From Maribacter sp. (lineage in GTDB: Bacteria > Bacteroidota > Bacteroidia > Flavobacteriales > Flavobacteriaceae): DNA of 64,000 nt. How positions within the stretch are numbered: position 1 is the stretch's first letter; each line of letters begins with the position of its first letter. The notes below the pieces were generated by a model. The model saw only the letters and a list, made by a program, of their open reading frames with translations, did no database searches and had not been told where the DNA came from. The stretch lies in assembly GCA_002749285.1 (NCBI GenBank), contig PDPR01000013.1, positions 89,623-153,622 on the forward strand, written 5' to 3'. Shown here one piece after another: positions 1,609 to 13,918 of the stretch. The translations under genes and the position numbers were made by a program.

Positions 1609-2607
1609 CTATATACCCCCGAACTTCCTAGGTCTATAGTCCTTCACCAATGCTTCCATGGCCGAAATATGTTCTGGGGTTGTCCCACAACAACCACCCA
1701 CAATATTCACCAGACCCTTTTCCATATATTCCCTTATCTGGGAAGCCATTTGTTCTGCAGTTTCAACATACTCCCCAAAGGCATTTGGCAGACCTGCATT
1801 TGGGTGTGCGGAAACCGCAAAATCGGTTTTTGATGACAAGACTTCCAAATGGGGCACTAATTGACTCGCCCCCAATGCACAATTAAAGCCTACCGAAAGA
1901 AGGGGCATATGCGATATGGAAATTAAAAATGCCTCCGCGGTTTGTCCGGACAAGGTCCTTCCCGAAGCATCGGTAATAGTACCGCTCACCATAACCGGAA
2001 TATCGACATTCCGTTTTTCTTTCACCTCCTCTATGGCAAAAAGTGCCGCTTTTGCATTTAAGGTGTCAAAAACAGTCTCAACAAGAAACAAATCAACACC
2101 CCCGTCTATCAAAGCCTCTATTTGTTGCCTGTAAGCCAATCGCAGATCATTGAAGGAAACGGCCCTGTACCCAGGATCGTTAACATCGGGGGACATACTT
2201 GCCGTTTTATTCGTAGGGCCGATACTACCTGCGACAAACCTAGGCTTATCAGGTTCTTCCGCCGTGAATCCATCTGCCACTTTTCTTGCAATTCGGGCAG
2301 CCTCATAGTTGAGTTCATATACCAGGTCCTCCATATGGTAATCGGCCATGGCTATGCTCGTACATGAAAAGGTATTTGTCTCGATAATATCGGCACCGGC
2401 CTCAAGGTATTTTGCGTGGATAGTGGCAATGGCCTCTGGCTGTGTCAGGGATAAAAGGTCGTTATTACCCTGCAAGGGACTAGGCCAATCCTTGAATCGC
2501 TCCCCACGAAAATCAGCCTCGGTGAATTTATAACGCTGTAGCATGGTACCCATGGCACCGTCCAGAACCAAGATCCGATCCTTCAATATTTCCTTTATGT
2601 CTCCCAT
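1609..2607 (-). CDS. metH: Homocysteine S-methyltransferase domain protein (N-terminal half of split MetH)
   Basis: [35 protein letters not shown]...[11 protein letters not shown]; Zn-binding Cys motifs of the Hcy-methyltransferase domain; the ORF-track start at 2622 is a TTG, with ATG at 2607. Confidence 0.93.
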
Positions 2608-2834
2608 GCGTTCAGTTTGCAAAAATATACTGTATTGTTTTTATCCTTATCTGCGTTGTCCCTTTTGACTGCCCCTACTGGACCCTAGGGCAACAATCCG
2701 CGGTGTCGTCATCCTTTTCCGGATTTCCAAGGTCTTGAAACCTTATGGCCGTTGTCCAAAAGGCACAGCGGAAAACCCGACCATCCACATAATAGGAACA
2801 GTAGCACACTATTTTTGTCTATCGACCAAGAAAA

Positions 2835-2978
2835 GGTGTAGGACGGATGTCTTTTATAGGATATCTTTATCGCCTTAGCTGTGATAAATTTAGCCCTTTT
2901 TTCCGGTTTATGTACTAGGGAAAGGGTCGCCAAGGTTTCATTGGATCTAGTCCCCCCTGCCTTTCTTGATGGCTTCAT
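2835..2978 (-). ncRNA. SAM-I (S-box) riboswitch upstream of metH
   Basis: Minus strand ATCAAGAAAGGCAGGGGGGACTAGATCCAATGAAACCTTGGCGACCC...AAGGGCTAAATTTATCAC...GATAAA matches the SAM-I core (AUCAAGA, GAUGAAACC-like, GGC-ACC, GCUAAAUU). Confidence 0.82.
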
Positions 2979-3273
2979 CAACACACTAAAGAACTCCTTG
3001 CAAATAAACGGTACTGTTTACTCAAAAACAAGGAATAACCTTAGTTTTAGGCCATTGCCTGCCAATCATCCTTTTTGTCGACAGAAGGTTTTTGGCACTT
3101 CGTTTATTCTCTCGCCTTTTTATTCAAAATCCTACTTTGGTATATTCCAAAAAGCATTCAAGTTGAGTACCATTTGGTTTATGTCTTCCAGAATGACTTT
3201 CCCAAAAGACCGCTGTTGGTTAAAATGACAATCCCCTCTATTATGCCTTATGGCAGGACCTGCTTGAAAAAAA

Positions 3274-4521
3274 TCAATTGATGAAACCCGCACCTACCGT
3301 ATTGTTCGATTGTGTGTCTATTATAATAAAGGAGCCATTTGTCCTATGATCCTTAAAGGCATCAAAGAAAATGGGCCTGTTCAACTTAAAGGATACTTTG
3401 GCAATATCATTGATCTTAAGGGAGTCGACCCCTTCGTCGATACCTGAATAATCCGGATCGATCTTATGATGAATATTATCCACTTTGGCCAAGACCTTAT
3501 TCACACCATGTTGTATGATATACTTACCGCCCACATTCAGGTTCTTGGAATCCATCCAGGAAATAGTTGCCGTAAATCGCTTATCTATCTTCGGCATATC
3601 ACCGACCTTCACCAACATATCACCCCGGCTTACATTAATCTCGTCCTCCAGGGTTATGGTTACCGATGAACGCCTAGATGCTGTTTGGTATTTTCTGTCA
3701 TGGAAATAGATTTCCTTGATCTTGGACCTGGTTTGGGAAGGCAATGCCACAACCTCATCGCCCACACTCAGCTCACCTCCGTACACCTTGCCCGCAAACC
3801 CCCTGAAATCATGGAACTCATCGGTTTTTGGCCGAATAACGTATTGCACAGGGAATCTAGGAGTACCTGTATTAAATACATCCTTCCTGTCCAATTGCTC
3901 TAAATGATCCAACAGCGTCTGCCCCTTATACCAAGGCAAGTTGTCAGTCTTATGAACCACGTTGTCCCCCTTAAGGGCGCTTATGGGAATAAAGGTTATT
4001 TTTTGTTCCTTATAATCCCGCTTATCCATTAAGGCCTTGAAATCGTTTTTTATGGCATTGTAGGTTTCTTCGGAATAATCGACCAGGTCCATTTTATTTA
4101 TGGCAACAATGACATCTTTGATCCGTAACAGGTTGTTGATGAAAAAATGACGGTTTGTCTGTTCAATAACCCCTTTCCTTGCATCGATCAGAATAATTGC
4201 CGCTTGGGACGTTGAAGCCCCCGTAACCATATTCCTGGTATACTCCACATGGCCTGGGGTATCTGCTATGATATAGCTTTTATTGGGTGTTGAAAAATAG
4301 ATATGGGCCACATCGATAGTTATCCCCTGTTCACGCTCCGCCACAAGTCCGTCCGTGGCCAAGGAGAAATCCAAATAATCATACCCTTTTTGTCTGCTGG
4401 TTTTCTCAATGGCCTCCAACTTGTCCGTGGTCAATGATTTGGTATCGTACAGGATTCTTCCTATCAAGGTGCTTTTACCATCATCCACACTACCTGCCGT
4501 TGCAATTTTCAATACTTCCAT
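3274..4521 (-). CDS. cysN: Sulfate adenylyltransferase large (GTPase) subunit CysN
   Basis: GTPase motifs ATAGSVDDGKSTLIGRIL, DTPGHVEYTRNM, NKMDLVDY; 415 aa, no C-terminal APS kinase domain. Confidence 0.95.
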   Translation of the reverse strand: MEVLKIATAGSVDDGKSTLIGRILYDTKSLTTDKLEAIEKTSRQKGYDYLDFSLATDGLVAEREQGITIDVAHIYFSTPNKSYIIADTPGHVEYTRNMVTGASTSQAAIILIDARKGVIEQTNRHFFINNLLRIKDVIVAINKMDLVDYSEETYNAIKNDFKALMDKRDYKEQKITFIPISALKGDNVVHKTDNLPWYKGQTLLDHLEQLDRKDVFNTGTPRFPVQYVIRPKTDEFHDFRGFAGKVYGGELSVGDEVVALPSQTRSKIKEIYFHDRKYQTASRRSSVTITLEDEINVSRGDMLVKVGDMPKIDKRFTATISWMDSKNLNVGGKYIIQHGVNKVLAKVDNIHHKIDPDYSGIDEGVDSLKINDIAKVSFKLNRPIFFDAFKDHRTNGSFIIIDTQSNNTVGAGFIN

Positions 4522-4626
4522 CCTATTTTAACTATTAGCCTTTGACTGTTTACCCTCTGGCTTTATTACTTAATCGTTTTACGCTCATGGCCTATCGCCA
4601 TAAACCAAATACTTAATTAGGCAATC

Positions 4627-5535
4627 CTAGAAATATCCTTGTTGCTTTCTTTTTTCCATGGCCGCTTCTGACCGTTTATCATCTATTCGCGCACCTCTTT
4701 CGGAGATGGTGGACTCCCGGATTTCCTGAACTACACTTGTAATATCCGAAGCTTCTGAAAAAACCGCTGCCGTACAGCTCATATCCCCTACTGTCCTAAA
4801 ACGGACCAGTTCTTCCAACACCTCTTCATCTTCTTCTTGATATACATAATCGGAATGTGACCAGATCATCCCATCTCTTAGGAAAACCTTTCTCTTATGG
4901 GCAAAATAGATGGATGGGATCTCAATACCCTCTTTTTCGATATAGGACCACACATCCAATTCCGTCCAGTTACTGATAGGGAATACACGTACGTTTTGAC
5001 CTAGATCGATCTGCCCGTTCAACATATCGAATAATTCGGGCCTTTGGTTTTTTTCATCCCACTGGCCAAAATCGTCCCTCACGGAAAAAATACGTTCCTT
5101 GGCCCTAGCCTTTTCCTCATCACGTCTTGCTCCACCGATACAGGCATCGAACTTGAATTCCTCTATAGCGTCCAAAAGCGTGGTGGTCTGAAGGGCGTTT
5201 CTACTGGAATATCGTCCAGTCTCTTCCTTGACCCTTCCTTGGTCTATGGAATCCTGTACATTCCTTATAATCAATTCCAAACCGAGTTCTTTCACCAATC
5301 TATCCCGGAATTCGATGGTTTCCGGAAAATTATGCCCCGTGTCGATATGCATTAACGGAAACGGGATCTTTGCTGGGTAGAAGGCTTTTTGCGCCAATCG
5401 CACCAAGGTTATGGAATCCTTTCCGCCAGAGAACAATAGAACAGGCCTCTCAAACTGCGCCGCCACTTCCCGAATAATGTAAATGGCCTCGTTCTCCAAT
5501 GGGTTAATGTGCGATGTATCTTTAATCAATGTCAT
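4627..5535 (-). CDS. cysD: Sulfate adenylyltransferase small subunit CysD
   Basis: LLFSGGKDSITLVRLAQKAF PP-loop; ARAKERIFS...; start placed at MTLIKDTSHINPLENEAIYIIREV (5535) instead of the ORF-track start. Confidence 0.94.
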   Translation of the reverse strand: MTLIKDTSHINPLENEAIYIIREVAAQFERPVLLFSGGKDSITLVRLAQKAFYPAKIPFPLMHIDTGHNFPETIEFRDRLVKELGLELIIRNVQDSIDQGRVKEETGRYSSRNALQTTTLLDAIEEFKFDACIGGARRDEEKARAKERIFSVRDDFGQWDEKNQRPELFDMLNGQIDLGQNVRVFPISNWTELDVWSYIEKEGIEIPSIYFAHKRKVFLRDGMIWSHSDYVYQEEDEEVLEELVRFRTVGDMSCTAAVFSEASDITSVVQEIRESTISERGARIDDKRSEAAMEKRKQQGYF

Positions 5536-5554
5536 GCTGTTACTCTTTTTTCCA

Positions 5555-6178
5555 TTAAATGTGCAATCCACACTCACGGTTCCCAAGCACCTTGGTGGGG
5601 TCAAAATATGTATGTTCATTCGGTAGGTTTCCCTCCTCCAGATACGTATCCAATTGTTCATCTGCCCAGTAATAGAACGGACTAACTTTCAAAACCCCAT
5701 CCTTGCCAAGACTAAAAATGTCCAAGGTATCCCTAAGGGCTGTCTGGCCTTTCCTCAAATTTGTAAACCAAACATCAGGTTCTATCTCTGCCATGGCCCT
5801 TCTAAAGGGTTCCAATTTCACTTGTTCGGTGAACTCGGCATGTCTTGGGTCATTTATATCGGGAATACCCATAACAACATCGCGATGTGCGGCGGTTTGT
5901 TTGGGAACATATAATTTTATGTTCAAATTCAAAGTGGTAATCAATTCCTCGGCATGGGCATAGGTTTGGGGGGTATTGTATCCCGTGTCACACCATACTA
6001 TGGGAATATTCCTAGCCACTTGGGTAACCGCTTTGAGAATAGCAACCTCATAAGGCCTAAAATTCGTGGTGACCACGGGATTCCTCGAATGCGAAATGGC
6101 CCACAGGATTATCTCCTCTGGTTGGGCCTCCTTAAATTGGATATTGTATTTTTTGATATTGTCCTCGGTAAAATCCAT
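5555..6178 (-). CDS. cysH: Phosphoadenylyl-sulfate reductase (CysH)
   Basis: PAPS-reductase fold motifs (IVWCDTGYNTPQTY, WFTNLRKGQTALRD) and C-terminal ECGLH; only two Cys, so no 4Fe-4S motif. Confidence 0.88.
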   Translation of the reverse strand: MDFTEDNIKKYNIQFKEAQPEEIILWAISHSRNPVVTTNFRPYEVAILKAVTQVARNIPIVWCDTGYNTPQTYAHAEELITTLNLNIKLYVPKQTAAHRDVVMGIPDINDPRHAEFTEQVKLEPFRRAMAEIEPDVWFTNLRKGQTALRDTLDIFSLGKDGVLKVSPFYYWADEQLDTYLEEGNLPNEHTYFDPTKVLGNRECGLHI

Positions 6179-6204
6179 TGCTCAATTTTTTTAAAATCTG
6201 TATT

Positions 6205-6471
6205 TCACTTTTTACCCCAAGCAACAAGATTCCATGCCCTTTCGTGAAAAAAGTATAAAATCATCTTGGTCACAAAATCAATTGAAGCTATAGAGGCCGC
6301 TATGGCAATCTCACCTGTCAAAAGGTAAGATACCAATAACGTATCCAACGTCCCAACCATCCTCCAGCTCAACGCTTTTACTATACTGCGGACCGGACTT
6401 TCGGATTTCCTGTCGGTACCAAAATCACTTTTGGTCGTTTTTTTGTTCAAAATCAATTGATCCGTAATCAT
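6205..6471 (-). CDS. DUF2061 small membrane protein
   Basis: SIVKALSWRMVGTLDTLLVSYLLTGEIAIAASIASIDFVTKMILYFFHERAWNLV is typical DUF2061; ATG at 6471. Confidence 0.85.
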   Translation of the reverse strand: MITDQLILNKKTTKSDFGTDRKSESPVRSIVKALSWRMVGTLDTLLVSYLLTGEIAIAASIASIDFVTKMILYFFHERAWNLVAWGKK

Positions 6472-6485
6472 AAAACCCAATTTAT

Positions 6486-6508
6486 TACCCTACCAATCTG
6501 GTAGGGTA
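6486..6508. promoter_or_regulatory. Candidate operator: perfect 10-bp inverted repeat TACCCTACCA-atc-TGGTAGGGTA in front of the cys operon
   Basis: Direct reading; lies just downstream of a flavobacterial -7-like TAAATTTG element on the minus strand. Confidence 0.6.
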
Positions 6509-6681
6509 TGCAAATTTAGGATTATATATGAAAAAACATATCTTATAAATAAATAAATAGCATATATACCCTATTGATTTATAGGTTGCTTATTTCCAAG
6601 ACCATTGTCCACCAGCAACCACAGTCATCGGGAATTTTTCAAAATATTCGGGAAATGTTGTATTTATTGGATTGACGGGAT

Positions 6682-7092
6682 TTACTTTATCAAATCTGCC
6701 AAGGTATTGTTACGATACACGGCCAATGCACTATCCCTAACCTGAAGCATTAATTTATACACGGAACAACTGGCCTCATCTGGACAATCCCTACATTTCT
6801 CATAAAAATTGAGACTTACACAGGGGACCATGGCTATGGGGCCTTCTAGAATACGGATTACGTCGGTCATTACGATATCATTGGGACCCTTAATGAGGTA
6901 ATACCCACCTCCCTTGCCTTTTTTGGAACCTAAAAAACCCGACTTGCGAAGGGTCAAAAGAATACTTTCGAGAAATTTTTGGGAAATATTCTCATGCCTA
7001 GCAATCTCGGCTATCTGAACCGGTCTACTTTCTTCCAATGAAGCTAGGAAACTCAAAGCCTTTAAACCGTATTTTGTTTTCTTGGAAAGCAT
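6682..7092 (-). CDS. Rrf2 family transcriptional regulator
   Basis: MLSKKTKYGLKALSFLASLEESRPVQIAEIARHENISQKFLESILLTLRKSGFLGSKKGKGGGYYL winged helix; Cys-rich CVSLNFYEKCRDCPDEASC. Confidence 0.92.
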   Translation of the reverse strand: MLSKKTKYGLKALSFLASLEESRPVQIAEIARHENISQKFLESILLTLRKSGFLGSKKGKGGGYYLIKGPNDIVMTDVIRILEGPIAMVPCVSLNFYEKCRDCPDEASCSVYKLMLQVRDSALAVYRNNTLADLIK

Positions 7093-7284
7093 TTAGCGAA
7101 TATATACAAAATCTTATACCCATTTCACCTATAGCAACAAAACTGATCCAAGACCTGCGCACAACATATTAAAACATTCCCTGAACCTACTGGCCAACCC
7201 GGACCGTTATTGATAATGGATGTATGATGATACTTTTATCAGCACCGAACTCTATAAGTTGTTGCGAATGGTTTTTTTATACGA

Positions 7285-10200
7285 TCATCCTTTTTCCGCA
7301 ATTCGCAAAATATCGCCAAACACCCCTCTAGCGGTAACAGCGGATCCTGCCCCTGCCCCTTGTATGACCAATGGACTCTCACCATAGGATTCCGTATAGA
7401 TCTCGATAATGGAGTCCGAACCCTTAACTTGGCCCAGAGCGCTTTCCTTCGGCACTGAAATCAATTTAACATCCAAGATTCCCTTTTCCCTTCTTAAATC
7501 ACCATGCAAATCCCCGACATAACGTAGTACATGATTGGGTTTTTGGTTTTTCTTCAGTTCATTAAAGGTATCGTTGAGTACATCCAAATTGCCCAAAAAC
7601 CGATCAACTGACCCACTTTGTAGATTTTCAGGTATCAAATTCTGGATCTGTATATCCGAGAACTCATTGCTTAGGCCCAACTCACGGGCAAGGATCAATA
7701 GTTTACGCCCTACATCATTACCAGAAAGGTCTTCCCTGGGATCCGGCTCGGTAAAACCCTTGTCCATGGCGTCTTCCAGTATACTCGAAAAAGGGGTGTC
7801 CACTTCTGAAAACGTATTGAACATATAACTCAATGAACCCGAAAAAACACCTTTGATACGTGTGATGTTCTCTCCGGAAAGATGCAGCAACTTTATGGTG
7901 TCTATCAAAGGTAATCCGGCACCTACATTGGTCTCATATAAGTATTGTTTCTGGTTTTTATCCAATTCCCCGCGCAATAATCGGTAATAATCAAAACCAA
8001 GGGTGTTGGCTATCTTATTGGACGACACCAAATCGAATCCGTTTTCGATGAAATCAAAATAATTGGCCACAAAATCCTCACTGGCCGTATTGTCGACCGC
8101 GATCAAGTTTTCAAAATGGTTCTTTTTGGCATAATCGAAAATATCCTGTATTTGATAGGCTATACCATACTCCTTAATGGCCGAACGCCAATTTTTAGGT
8201 ATTCCTTTGGAGTCGAAGAGTACTTTTCTTGAATTTGCCACCGCAAATATATTCAAATCGATTCCTTTTCTTTTCTCTATCGTCCTTGAGGATCTCAAGA
8301 TTTGGTCCACCAAGGTCCCCCCTACATTGCCATGGCCAAAAACAACCACGTTCACCTTCTTACTTATCCCGAAAACCTGTCCGTGCATAACATTCAATGC
8401 TTTATGCAGATCGGACTTCCTAACGACCATACTCACATTCTTACCCGTAACCGTATTATTAAAAAGCAGGGGTACGATCTGGTTTTTTATCAAGGAGTTG
8501 TAAGGTTTGTGAAACGTACTCAGATCCTGACCCACAATGGATATGACCGAAACATCGTTCACTACGCTTATCCGATTGATGTCCTTGGATTCAAAGTCAT
8601 GTGCGAATTCCTGTTGCAGGGCAATCTTGGCCTTTTCTGCCTTATCGGCATTCACTACCAAACCAATACCACGTTCCGAAGAGCCTTGGGAAACAATACT
8701 TACACTTATGTCATTATCCCTAAGCGACCTGAATATCCTAGCATCCACACCGACCTTGCCCAACAATCCCCTACCTTCGAGATTGACCATAGCGACATTC
8801 TCTATGACCGATAATGATTTTATGCCTTCCTTATTCGACTTCGCACTTATAAGGGTCCCTTCATTATCACTATTGAAGGTGTTCAATATCCGCAAGGGGA
8901 TATTCTTCTCGATCAATGGAATAATGGTCTTGGCGTGCAATATGGTTGCCCCGAAATTCGCCAACTCATTGGCCTCACTGTAAGAAAGTTCCGAAATTCG
9001 CTTGGCATCGGACACATAATCAGGGTTCGCAGTAAAAATACCATCAACATGGGTGTAGTTCTGAAGCTCTTCCGCATCCAAATAATTGGCCATCATTGCC
9101 GCAGAGTAGTTGCTTCCATTCCTACCCAATGTGGTTGTCTCCCCTTCTATGGTAGAAGCGATGAACCCGGTTATCACCGGAACGGTATCATGACTCAATT
9201 TGGAGAATTCCCTCAATATGTTTTCCTTGGATATAGTCTCTATCACATGCGCACTACCAAAGGTATTATCGGTCTTGATCAATTTTCGGGAATCCATCAA
9301 TATAGCCTTGATTCCTTTACCAATCAATAGTTTGGTAACCAGTTTGGCCGAAACAACCTCACCATAGGACAGAACCTGGTCCCTGATTTTCGGACTGTAA
9401 TCCCCTAAGAGCGACACCCCTTCGAGTAATTTGAACAATGCCTCATATTCCTTGGAAAGGTCAACATTATTGAACGTATGGGTCTGATATTTTTCAAAAG
9501 CCATGAAATCCCTTGAATAATCCTCCCCATGGGCCGCTTTTTCGAGCATGGCCTCCAATTGGTCTGTCGATTTCCCACGCGCCGAAAGCACAACGGCTAT
9601 ATTTTCACCATTGCCCACCTTGTTGGTGATGATATCCAAAACATGGCCCAAACCCTCTCCATTGCCCAGTGACCTGCCCCCAAACTTCAATATCTTGATT
9701 CGATCGGATTTCCCGTCCTTGTTGAAAATCCCATTGAGAAGTTTCTGCATTTGTCCAAACTCGATCAAAAAAGCATCATGCCCATGCAACGACTGTACTT
9801 CACCGTAGGTAACATTGCTCTTTGCCTGTGCCAATTGCTTAAAGGTCTCCTTATTCTCCTTGGCCGTAAAGAACAGATCGGAATCAACCCCGATAATATG
9901 GATATTGGTATCGCTGTTCTGAAGGTCATCAAAAGCAGTTTCCCCATTACGGGTAATATCGATAGTCTTCAGTAATTGGTTCATCAATTTATAAGCCGAC
10001 ACCTGAAAACGGTTCTTTAGTTTTTCTCCATGGTGCATCAACCAACTTTCCACATTGAAAACCTGCAATTCCTCATTGGTGCTTCTTCTAAACCTTTGTT
10101 TGAACGACTCTGGTGTCCTATAGCACAACATGGCATGCATACGGGCGTCATGTACCGGTTGCTTGGAGTTGACCAGGAACTGCTCCTGTATCTGGCAATT

Positions 10201-10671
10201 TGCAATGAGCCAATCGGTAGATTTCCAATCTGAGGCAACTGGAATCAAATGTGTGGCCAGATTAGGGTCCAGGGCAGCCATTTCCCAAGCAATGCCCCCT
10301 CCCAATGAGCCCCCCAACAAAGCAAAGAGCTTTTCTATCTTCAACATCTTCAATCCCATCAAAAAAATACGGGCAATATCACCTGCCACAAAATCCTTGT
10401 AGTTTTCTATGATAAAACCATCATACCCATTACCTGGTATGTTGAATGCCATTATGGTATACTTGTCGATGTCAATACATTTCCCCTCCCCAATAAGGGC
10501 GGACCACCAGCCCTCGGGGCCCGTGACGTTCGAATTTCCCGTAAGGGCATGATTGACCAATACGATAGGTGCCTCATGAAGTGGTTTCCCGAAAAGTTGA
10601 TAGGAAAGTGAAATATCCTGGGATACACCACTTATGGTCCTGAAATCTTTTATTTCTAATTGATGCAACAT
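7285..10671 (-). CDS. Trifunctional fusion: homoserine O-acetyltransferase-like (MetX) + aspartate kinase + homoserine dehydrogenase
   Basis: N-terminal alpha/beta hydrolase (NHALTGNSNVTG, LLGGSLGGG, GVDSDLFF, LHGHDAFL), then KILKFGGRSLGNGEG aspartokinase with ACT domains, then VVVFGHGNVGGTLVDQI NAD(P)-binding HSD domain. Confidence 0.92.
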   Translation of the reverse strand: MLHQLEIKDFRTISGVSQDISLSYQLFGKPLHEAPIVLVNHALTGNSNVTGPEGWWSALIGEGKCIDIDKYTIMAFNIPGNGYDGFIIENYKDFVAGDIARIFLMGLKMLKIEKLFALLGGSLGGGIAWEMAALDPNLATHLIPVASDWKSTDWLIANCQIQEQFLVNSKQPVHDARMHAMLCYRTPESFKQRFRRSTNEELQVFNVESWLMHHGEKLKNRFQVSAYKLMNQLLKTIDITRNGETAFDDLQNSDTNIHIIGVDSDLFFTAKENKETFKQLAQAKSNVTYGEVQSLHGHDAFLIEFGQMQKLLNGIFNKDGKSDRIKILKFGGRSLGNGEGLGHVLDIITNKVGNGENIAVVLSARGKSTDQLEAMLEKAAHGEDYSRDFMAFEKYQTHTFNNVDLSKEYEALFKLLEGVSLLGDYSPKIRDQVLSYGEVVSAKLVTKLLIGKGIKAILMDSRKLIKTDNTFGSAHVIETISKENILREFSKLSHDTVPVITGFIASTIEGETTTLGRNGSNYSAAMMANYLDAEELQNYTHVDGIFTANPDYVSDAKRISELSYSEANELANFGATILHAKTIIPLIEKNIPLRILNTFNSDNEGTLISAKSNKEGIKSLSVIENVAMVNLEGRGLLGKVGVDARIFRSLRDNDISVSIVSQGSSERGIGLVVNADKAEKAKIALQQEFAHDFESKDINRISVVNDVSVISIVGQDLSTFHKPYNSLIKNQIVPLLFNNTVTGKNVSMVVRKSDLHKALNVMHGQVFGISKKVNVVVFGHGNVGGTLVDQILRSSRTIEKRKGIDLNIFAVANSRKVLFDSKGIPKNWRSAIKEYGIAYQIQDIFDYAKKNHFENLIAVDNTASEDFVANYFDFIENGFDLVSSNKIANTLGFDYYRLLRGELDKNQKQYLYETNVGAGLPLIDTIKLLHLSGENITRIKGVFSGSLSYMFNTFSEVDTPFSSILEDAMDKGFTEPDPREDLSGNDVGRKLLILARELGLSNEFSDIQIQNLIPENLQSGSVDRFLGNLDVLNDTFNELKKNQKPNHVLRYVGDLHGDLRREKGILDVKLISVPKESALGQVKGSDSIIEIYTESYGESPLVIQGAGAGSAVTARGVFGDILRIAEKG

Positions 10672-10749
10672 TCTTAAAATTCTGTATTATTCTGAACACT
10701 CCCTAGCCAAAATGGATAAAAAATGTATTCAACCCAAGTTAAGACCTGA

Positions 10750-12027
10750 TTATCCAATAGCCGAAAAGGCCTGCTCTAAATCCGCCTTAAGATCTTCCAG
10801 ATCCTCTAGACCGACAGATAAACGAATCAAATCCTGACCAACACCTGCCGCATCTTGTTGCTCTACCGTCAATTGTTGGTGTGTCGTACTTGCCGGATGG
10901 ATTATCAAGGATTTCGTATCACCTATATTTGCCAATAAAGAGAATATCCTAGTCGCATCGGTAACTTTCTTAGCTGCCTCAAAGCCGCCCTTTACACCAA
11001 ATGTGACCAATCCACTTTGTCCTTTTGGCAAATATTCCTGTGCCAGATCGTAGTATTCGCTACTCTTCAAACCTGGGTAATTCACCCATTCTACCTCTTC
11101 CCTACTTTCCAACCAAGTGGCCAGGGCCAAGGCATTCGCACTATGCTGTCTTATTCGTACCGATAATGTTTCCAGACCTTGAATAATCTGGAATGCATTA
11201 AACGGACTTAGCGCCCCGCCAAAATCACGCAACCCTTCCAAAATCAATTTAAACGTAAATGCTGCCGCACCCAATGCCTCGCTATAGACCAAACCATGGT
11301 AACCATCGGAAGGCTCTGTAAATTCGGGGAATTTTCCATTTGCCCAATCAAAGGTACCCGCATCGATAACGGCTCCACCCAATGAAGTCCCCTGGCCACC
11401 GATATATTTTGTAAGTGAATGGATGACCAAATTAGCCCCATGCCCAATAGGGTTCAACAAGGCCGGTGAAGCAACTGTATTGTCGACGATAAATGGCACT
11501 TGTGCCGTTTTGGCCTGTTTTGAGATTGCCTTTAGATCCAACACATCCAATTTTGGGTTACCCAACGACTCCACAAAAAATGCCCTGGTATTTTCTTGTA
11601 CCGCTTTTCCAAAATTCCCTGGATCGGAAGCATCTACAAACGTAGTGGTTATACCCAATCTTGGCAAAGTAACATTCAATAAGTTAAAAGTCCCCCCATA
11701 TAAACTACTCGAAGCCACGATATGGTCCCCTGCCTTCAATAGTGTCAGTAAACTTGTAGAGATAGCGGAGGTGCCCGAAGCAAAGACCACGGCCCCTACA
11801 CCACCTTCCATGGCTGCCAACCTATTTTGTAGGATCTCATTTGTAGGATTGTTCAACCGTGTATAAATGAAACCCAACTCAGCCAACGAAAACAGGTTGG
11901 CCGCATGATCCGTATTATCGAATACGTATGATGAGGTTTGATAAATAGGCACTGCCCGTGTTCCGTTTGTTTTCGTTGTGTCGTGACCGGCATGTAATGC
12001 GTTTGTGGAAAATTTTTGATTACCCAT
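10750..12027 (-). CDS. metY: O-acetylhomoserine sulfhydrylase (PLP-dependent)
   Basis: KFSTNALHAGHD...SSLYGGTFNLL...VIHSLTKYIGGQGTSLGG; ATG (MGNQKFS) at 12027. Confidence 0.93.
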   Translation of the reverse strand: MGNQKFSTNALHAGHDTTKTNGTRAVPIYQTSSYVFDNTDHAANLFSLAELGFIYTRLNNPTNEILQNRLAAMEGGVGAVVFASGTSAISTSLLTLLKAGDHIVASSSLYGGTFNLLNVTLPRLGITTTFVDASDPGNFGKAVQENTRAFFVESLGNPKLDVLDLKAISKQAKTAQVPFIVDNTVASPALLNPIGHGANLVIHSLTKYIGGQGTSLGGAVIDAGTFDWANGKFPEFTEPSDGYHGLVYSEALGAAAFTFKLILEGLRDFGGALSPFNAFQIIQGLETLSVRIRQHSANALALATWLESREEVEWVNYPGLKSSEYYDLAQEYLPKGQSGLVTFGVKGGFEAAKKVTDATRIFSLLANIGDTKSLIIHPASTTHQQLTVEQQDAAGVGQDLIRLSVGLEDLEDLKADLEQAFSAIG

Positions 12028-12168
12028 GATTTTAATTTGTTTTTGTTGTTGATAAAATAAATAAAAACACCGCTCCCCCAATCGCTGTTTACAACTAGGG
12101 ATAATCAAAAGGTTAAAAAGAAAGAGACAATTACAAAAATGCAATTCGTTTCGTTATCTATTCTCGCC

Positions 12169-12288
12169 TATATCAAAGGATGCCGGGAAACCCAGCTTCA
12201 AGATAGAATTTAGCACCTTCTCCGCTCTGGGGGCAAAGGGTTGCCAAGGCTTCACAGGGTCCATTCCCTCCACCTTTCTTGATAACAA
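12169..12288 (-). ncRNA. SAM-I (S-box) riboswitch upstream of metY-metX/thrA
   Basis: Minus strand TTATCAAGAAAGGTGGAGGGAATGGACCCTGTGAAGCCTTGGCAACC...GGTGCTAAATTCTATCTTGAAGCTGGGTTTCCCGGCATCCTTTGATA; P1 TATCAA/TTGATA and P4 GCTGGG/CCCGGC pair. Confidence 0.93.
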
Positions 12289-12364
12289 TTCAATATGTGT
12301 TTGAACTTTTGAATGGCTAATATAAGACCATACGTTTGTTTTTTCCTAATTTTTTTTAGATAAA

Positions 12365-13621
12365 TCAAATTTTAAAAGCAGCCTTTACAGCGTCCACCAC
12401 ATCCAATTTTTCCCAAGTGAACAATTCCACTTCCTTCTCGATCCTACCATTGTAGGGGGATTCGAAAACCTTCGTAATCACTTTGGGTTCCTTTCCCATA
12501 TGGCCGTAGGCAGCGGTTTCCAAATAAATAGGATTGCGCAATTTCAATCGTTCCTCAATGGCAAAGGGCCGCATATCGAACAATTGTGAAATTATTTTGG
12601 CGATTTCACCATCTGAGTACGGAATCTTCGCAGTACCATAGGTATTCACGAAAATCGAAGTAGGCTCCACCACTCCAATAGCATAACTGACCTGAACCAA
12701 AATCTCATCAGAAACCCCTGCAGCCACTAAATTTTTCGCAATATGCCGGGCAGCATAAGCTGCGCTCCGGTCCACCTTACTGGGGTCCTTACCGCTAAAG
12801 GCACCACCACCATGGGCACCTTTGCCTCCATAGGTGTCCACAATGATCTTTCTACCTGTAAGCCCTGTGTCGCCATGTGGGCCACCAATCACGAACTTTC
12901 CAGTAGGGTTGATGTGGTATTTTATCTGGTCATCGAACAACCTTTGATCACTTTGGGGCAATTCCCTGATTACCCTTGGCATCAAAATCGAAATAATATC
13001 TTCCTTGATTTTTGCCAGCATTTTATCATCATCGGCATCAAATGCATCATGTTGTGTGGACACAACGATCGTATCGATCCGCTGTGGCACATTATCATCC
13101 GAATATTCAATCGTTACCTGGGATTTGGCATCCGGCCTTAAATAGGAGATCTCGGTACCTTCCCTTCTTATGGCCGCAAGGGTCTGTAAGATCCTATGTG
13201 AAATATCCAATGCCAAAGGCATATAGTTTTCCGTTTCCTTGGTTGCATAACCGAACATCATTCCTTGGTCCCCTGCTCCCTGTTTTTCCTTTTCCCCGCG
13301 GTCAACACCTTGATTGATATCCTGGGACTGTTCGTGTATCAAGGAAATGACCCCACATGAATCACCACTGAATTGGTATTCCCCTTTGGTATAACCAATT
13401 TTATTAACAACGTCCCTTGCGATATTCTGGACATCCAGATAGGTGCCGCTTTTTACCTCCCCGGCCAGGATTACCTGGCCCGTGGTGACCAAAGTCTCAC
13501 AAGCTACTTTGCTTTCCGGGTCAAAAGCCAAAAAACTATCCAATAATGCATCACTGATCTGATCGGCTACTTTGTCCGGGTGTCCTTCGCTAACAGATTC
13601 CGAAGTAAATAAATATGCCAT
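12365..13621 (-). CDS. metK: S-adenosylmethionine synthetase
   Basis: [59 protein letters not shown]. Confidence 0.97.
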
Positions 13622-13684
13622 TTTTACAAAAAATAAAATAGGAGGAAACAAAAAAGATCGCGAAAAGGGAAAATGAAACCAGCT

Positions 13685-13800
13685 GTTACCGTTTTAGCAT
13701 TTTTTCCGGTACTGAACTTGGCTCGATATCCAGTACCCTTGGGAACTAGATGCCAAAGTGAATCCAGGGCCAGGAAGTTGCAATCAGTCAAATCTTCCCT
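13685..13800 (-). ncRNA. SAM-II-like riboswitch with extended loop upstream of metK
   Basis: Minus strand GGAAGATTTGACTGATTGCAACTTCC (P1 GGAAG/CTTCC) ... AATGCTAAAACGGTAAC; ACTG/CGGT pseudoknot pairing possible; extra hairpin GGTACTG...CAGTACC in the long linker. Confidence 0.72.
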
Positions 13801-13918
13801 CTTAAGGTTGAGGACAAAAGTATAAAAAATGTTTTTCTTATAATAAGATAATCCGATTGTAATTTCCCGAACAATGTTAAAATGACCTTAATGTATTCCG
13901 CCTTAGCCCCTCTTCGCC

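Follow-up and report, generated by a model that had tools for sequence, protein, structure and literature searches.

A divergent, long-linked SAM-II long-loop riboswitch upstream of metK in a Maribacter genome, with linker hairpins and a candidate anti-aptamer strand

The definition of the SAM-II long-loop motif (Rfam RF01726) dates from 2010 and covers Bacteroidetes and marine sequences (Weinberg et al. 2010, PMC2864571), and SAM-V riboswitches have been reported in marine alpha-proteobacteria and Bacteroidetes (PMC6061858). On the distribution of the SAM classes, it was stated in 2007 that no species had been found with both SAM-I and SAM-II (PMC2258182). A second described system touches this locus: CGTC-tagged REPs are short palindromes carrying a TGTC/CGTC tag and often arranged as head-to-head dimers, and their superfamily takes in Bacteroidetes and G. 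forsetii (PMC3733652).

Identity of the metK leader element

We analysed a 64-kb stretch of Maribacter sp. DNA (the window). A covariance-model search with 4227 Rfam families matched RF01726, 'SAM-II riboswitch aptamer (SAM-II long loop)', to positions 13807-13684 of the minus strand with 34.9 bits and an E-value of 3.3e-5, and metK lies directly downstream. An earlier note on this DNA had proposed a SAM-II-like riboswitch with a long loop before metK, which this match bears out, and the extended-loop relatives that it mentioned for Bacteroidetes are RF01726, listed for that group in PMC2864571. Between the two covariance models it had named, the long-loop model matched and that of classical SAM-II (RF00521) did not; neither RF00521 nor the SAM-V models gave a match in the window even at E-values up to 10. 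The window copy scores below the curated gathering score of 44 bits, which is an annotation threshold and no structural feature, and its homology to RF01726 is drawn from the E-value and the anatomy (Table 1) despite the sub-cut-off score. It is the only RF01726 copy in its genome and has the lowest score among the matches listed for family genomes and congeners. The low score has two sources: the long linker lowers it (scores are 47-56 bits for congeners whose linker is equally long and 55-64 bits for those with a shorter one), and changes in the window's own core lower it further.

Table 1. Features of the metK leader in the window
Feature	Positions	Strand	Basis and remarks
metK (S-adenosylmethionine synthetase), ATG at 13621	12365..13621	-	ORF; identity of the translated region to Flavobacteriia relatives reaches 87%
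Candidate anti-aptamer	13642..13661	-	GCGAUC (13661-13656) can pair with GAUUGC; UUUCCUC (13648-13642) can pair with GAGGGAA
SAM-II long-loop aptamer, including 75-nt linker	13684..13807	-	RF01726 match
P2 pseudoknot 3' strand CGGU (CAGU in most relatives)	13688..13691	-	one U-G pair in the window
Invariant GCUAAA, SAM-II core	13693..13698	-	RF01726 match; nearly invariant in 192 leaders
Linker hairpin H3	13709..13729	-	mismatches in the window; homologous G306 hairpin holds the exact dispersed-repeat unit CTGAAACAAGTTCAG
Linker hairpin H2, CUAGUUCC CAAG GGUACUGG	13730..13749	-	kept in the window with one mismatch
Linker hairpin H1	13750..13770	-	intact in congeners G301-G304; partly broken or mostly lost in the window; homologous columns 38-58 of alignment A2
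P1 3' arm CUUC (CCUC in relatives)	13774..13777	-	one G-U pair in the window
P2 pseudoknot 5' strand ACUG, inside P1 loop	13785..13788	-	alignment
P1 5' arm GAGG	13798..13801	-	RF01726 alignment and compensatory changes in the family
Promoter -7 element TACTTTTG (Bacteroidetes TAnnTTTG)	13815..13822	-	read directly

Upstream of metK, the minus strand carries GAGGGAAGAUUUGACUGAUUGCAACUUC (13801-13774), the 75-nt linker and then AAAAAAUGCUAAAACGGU, whose last base is 13688. The P1 helix of the class, in which GAGG and CCUC close a GAUUUG..AUUGCAA loop, is formed by four GAGG/CUUC pairs of which one is G-U, and the pseudoknot of the loop ACUG with the strand after GCUAAA is formed by four ACUG/CGGU pairs of which one is U-G; the downstream gene, metK, belongs to SAM/methionine metabolism. 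The sequences quoted in the earlier note are all found on the minus strand (GGAAG at 13798-13794, ATTTGACTGATTGCAA at 13793-13778, CTTCC at 13777-13773, GGTACTG at 13737-13731, CAGTACC at 13714-13708 and GCTAAAACGGTAAC at 13698-13685). However, its pairing of GGAAG with CTTCC as P1 is an alternative in a shifted register, which would use up the G of GAUUU, a conserved base; the P1 of the family corresponds here to GAGG/CUUC.

For most of the leaders retrieved from relatives, a position upstream of metK could be established. Those in which both the aptamer and the metK start were placed numbered 192, and were reduced to 175, mostly one leader per genus. P1 across this set is GAGG/CCUC, with compensatory changes such as AGGG/CCCU also present; at the two outer pairs, A-U is replaced by G-C in 8 leaders and G-C by A-U in 7. 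P2 is almost always CUG/CAG. Homologous metK leaders thus provide the covariance support on which the earlier note had made its reading depend, in the compensatory changes of P1 and in linker hairpins that are conserved within the genus. The class is ordinary in the family, as it is present in 285 of 301 same-family genomes, nearly always in one copy and with spans of about 56 to 160 nt. The window's genus has two span classes, of 71-81 nt and 120-124 nt, and the window belongs to the long one with G301-G304 and G306. The motif TAnnTTTG, which is the flavobacterial sigma-A consensus (PMC9723704), precedes P1 by 9-21 nt in 173 of the 175 leaders (8.7 expected), a position from which the transcription start is expected a few bases before P1.

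The window copy has singleton changes in three places: P1, the bases next to P1 and the 3' core. These changes at conserved positions, together with the lowest score among the listed family matches, the large loss of H1 and the mismatches in H3, would be expected if the copy were a decaying, weakly functional or non-functional relic of a riboswitch that works in its relatives, with P1 and P2 eroded and the linker hairpins breaking. The shifted GGAAG/CUUCC helix may also compete with P1, and a second SAM-I match in the window, upstream of metH, is likewise weak at 30.9 bits. We nevertheless consider decay unlikely, given that the changes in P1 and P2 preserve pairing as G-U wobbles, that GAUUUGACUGAUUGCAA and GCUAAA are intact, and that the promoter element is intact. 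The folding stability of the window leader as a whole is unremarkable (z -0.96). We conclude that the element genuinely belongs to RF01726, a class that is already known, and is a divergent member with a long linker. Judged from its sequence, it very probably senses SAM and represses metK.

The only gathering-level Rfam matches in the 64-kb window are two tRNAs and a SAM-I (S-box) riboswitch. The latter, at 12151-12288 of the minus strand (69 bits), lies between metK and a PLP-dependent sulfhydrylase/metY-like gene, 1.4 kb from the SAM-II long loop. SAM-I is present in 48 of 61 family genomes and RF01726 in nearly all, and this coexistence in most family genomes updates the 2007 statement. The second, sub-cut-off SAM-I match lies at 2858-2975 of the minus strand, about 240 nt upstream of a metH N-terminal-like gene; among the SAM-I matches listed for relatives, nearly all reach at least 58 bits. 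With ORFs assigned by reading rather than by family search, the minus strand from 1609 to 13621 forms one sulfate-assimilation and methionine cluster, comprising metK, a metY-like gene, a fused metX/aspartokinase-homoserine dehydrogenase ORF (1128 aa), an Rrf2-type regulator, cysH/cysD/cysN-like genes and the N-terminal part of metH. The closest named relatives of the window's metK are from Euzebyella, Flagellimonas and other Flavobacteriia.

Linker hairpins and dispersed repeats

The linkers of congeners G301-G304 fold as three tandem, adjacent hairpins. Across these four sequences and the window, 95% of the named hairpin pairs are formed, compared with at most 46% when the pairs are slid by one to three columns; a column-shuffle control gave no significance, with only five close sequences to draw on. 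Family-wide, hairpin number tracks linker length and ranges from 0 to 3, and linkers fold better than their dinucleotide shuffles (mean z about -3.3, n=127 linkers). By comparison of leaders, the stretch from the P1 3' arm to the A-rich strand before GCUAAA tolerates 0-3 hairpins, with three in the window's subclade. The GGTACTG/CAGTACC hairpin, which the earlier note had taken as an element of the linker, turned out to be specific to the window and absent from its closest relatives. It was rejected as a conserved linker element, the best fold that contains it reaching -20.2 kcal/mol against a linker minimum of -25.2 kcal/mol.

CTGAAACAAGTTCAG or CTGAACTTGTTTCAG is found in many of the linkers, and at least 17 of 125 match the 15-nt repeat unit at 13 or more positions, where 0.03 would be expected from dinucleotide or structure-preserving shuffles. 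The unit is also dispersed in the same genomes, with up to 29 copies per genome compared with 0-1 for a reversed control pattern, and the riboswitch positions are themselves among the dispersed copies in G071, G132, G159, G177, G291 and G306. The G301 linker is 88% identical to that of G306 over 38 query bases, and the G306 linker aligns with the window-type linker. A search for copies of a congener's linker in its own genome (68% complete) found none.

These hairpins could instead be ordinary spacer stems, selected to join the two aptamer halves and unrelated to mobile repeats. Most linkers do match the repeat unit poorly, those of the window and of G301 type match at 10-11 of 15 positions, which is near chance, and dispersed copies are few in the window's genus. 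Set against this are the 17 linkers that match at 13 or more of 15 positions even against structure-preserving shuffles, the dispersal of the unit relative to its reversed pattern, and the exact unit in a G306 linker that can be aligned to the window's own. We regard spacer stems as a possibility of some weight, although not the favoured one. These sequence comparisons support the view that some linker hairpins in the family, at the least, are copies of a palindromic repeat dispersed in the genomes. Descent of the window linker from the repeat, an indirect link through its alignment with the G306 linker, appears likely, and the window insert is probably an old, decayed copy.

In two other genera (L339, 340-660; L340, 309-626), RNase P RNA also carries copies of CTGAAACAAGTTCAG at its 5' end and a related hairpin near its 3' end, which apparently form variable helices of that RNA. 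The Rfam scan was blank on short fragments of these loci and matched RNase P RNA when longer context was supplied.

A strand complementary to the aptamer

Downstream of the pseudoknot and ahead of the start codon, nearly all leaders contain a strand whose sequence is complementary to that of the aptamer. For the duplex of the 5' part of the aptamer with this strand, the mean z across the family is -2.62 and 67% of leaders fall below -2, while the same test gave mean z values of -0.09 for upstream and +0.13 for CDS controls. The commonest form of the strand is CGTCAAATC(T/C), complementary to (A/G)GATTTGAC, and GTCAAATC is present in 63 of 175 leaders (0.35 expected). Covariation links the base preceding GATTTG with its partner in the strand (A-T 38, G-C 17, G-T 11, A-C 2; Fisher p 5e-7), and a leader's pairing with its own aptamer is stronger than with a foreign one by 1.86 kcal/mol (difference -1.86 kcal/mol, p 3e-18); these p-values overstate the support, as related sequences do not count as independent. 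The target differs in the window's genus, where it is GATTGC and GAGGGAA, and the window duplex is modestly favoured (-16.6 versus -13.4 for shuffled sequences, z -1.4).

A purine-rich aptamer and a pyrimidine-rich leader might yield such complementarity as a by-product of composition, with no switching strand. The leader strand is indeed pyrimidine-rich, and the window's z is only -1.4. Nevertheless, composition was controlled by the dinucleotide shuffles, and it accounts for neither the number of leaders with exact GTCAAATC nor the covariation of the base 5' of GATTTG, so we judge this explanation very improbable. A family-wide, covarying strand between the aptamer and the start codon, complementary to the aptamer, is hence supported at the level of sequence. 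In several short-linker leaders (L003, L006-L009, L011-L015, L017 and L018), a stem of 7-9 bp (e.g. GUUGCUUUU/AAAAGCAAC) is closed immediately ahead of the metK start and encloses the anti-aptamer in its loop.

The best-supported reading is that pairing within the aptamer and pairing of the aptamer with the anti-aptamer would be mutually exclusive. Sequence comparison supports a transcription start just before P1 and an aptamer formed by the P1 hairpin, with its loop ACUG paired to CGGU after GCUAAA. Without SAM, the anti-aptamer would pair with the aptamer and open it, and metK would be expressed. With SAM, P1 and P2 would be stabilised and the aptamer locked, freeing the anti-aptamer strand, and expression would fall. 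By the general logic of metK riboswitches, SAM is expected to turn metK down. The unlocked state is predicted to be 12.9 kcal/mol lower on average, a value that leaves out the energies of the pseudoknot and the ligand.

Rho-dependent termination, ribosome loading and mRNA decay are candidate routes by which the freed strand might lower expression. A search of the window leader yielded no intrinsic terminator. Hiding of the start codon by the freed anti-aptamer found no support, as openness of the start region in aptamer-locked leaders is predicted at 0.543 for real and 0.527 for shuffled leaders; the predicted drop from 0.592 in the free to 0.547 in the locked state is unspecific, because locked shuffled leaders are no more open than real ones. 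With neither a terminator in the window leader nor a predicted occlusion of the start region, the output step is left unsupported.

Overall, we think it likely that the element is best explained as a predicted SAM-sensing, metK-repressing RF01726 member with a linker of hairpin and repeat origin and anti-aptamer switching. The wider proposal, that RF01726 in Flavobacteriaceae combines dedicated anti-aptamer switching before the metK start with a linker that has repeatedly been a REP landing site and keeps the palindromes as structural hairpins, is to us evenly poised.

Comparison with known systems

Neither an anti-aptamer in the RF01726 class nor repeats in its linker is described in the searchable papers, which take in no subscription journals or supplements and so do not prove that a description is absent. 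The group to which Flavobacteriaceae belong does not rely on Shine-Dalgarno sequences. Although the riboswitch class is known, its control of genes in such a group is likewise not described in those papers, and the near-universal, covarying anti-aptamer makes the mode of control directly testable. If repeats are kept inside a ligand-binding pseudoknot, they would clearly exemplify how mobile palindromes can become RNA parts. The features that merit following up are the anti-aptamer seen across the family and the linkers built from repeats.

For CGTC-type REP dimers we looked for a CGTC/TGTC tag, a stem of 8-9 bp, a loop of 4-5 nt and multiple genomic copies. Genomic copies of the linker repeat such as L303 consist of two head-to-head hairpins with TGTC...GACG ends. 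They resemble CGTC-REPs in these ends and in the head-to-head pairing, a likeness of description rather than of consensus, and the linker repeat is apparently of that published type (PMC3733652). The insert in the window is too decayed for assignment, whereas the repeat's identity is clear in the linkers of other genera.

With SAM-V, the window element shares a SAM-II-like pseudoknot, yet it gave no SAM-V match. With classical SAM-II (RF00521) of alpha-proteobacteria it has in common the logic of an H-type pseudoknot and the GAUUU, UUGCA and GCUAAA segments; it differs in three extra bases between P1 and GAUUU, in its long linker and in having no terminator that we could find. From RF01726 as described it departs in a 75-nt linker of the three-hairpin type, derived changes in the core and a score below the threshold, while it shares with that class the core GAUUUGACUGAUUGCAA ... 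GCUAAA, P1, the pseudoknot, a Bacteroidetes host and metK downstream.
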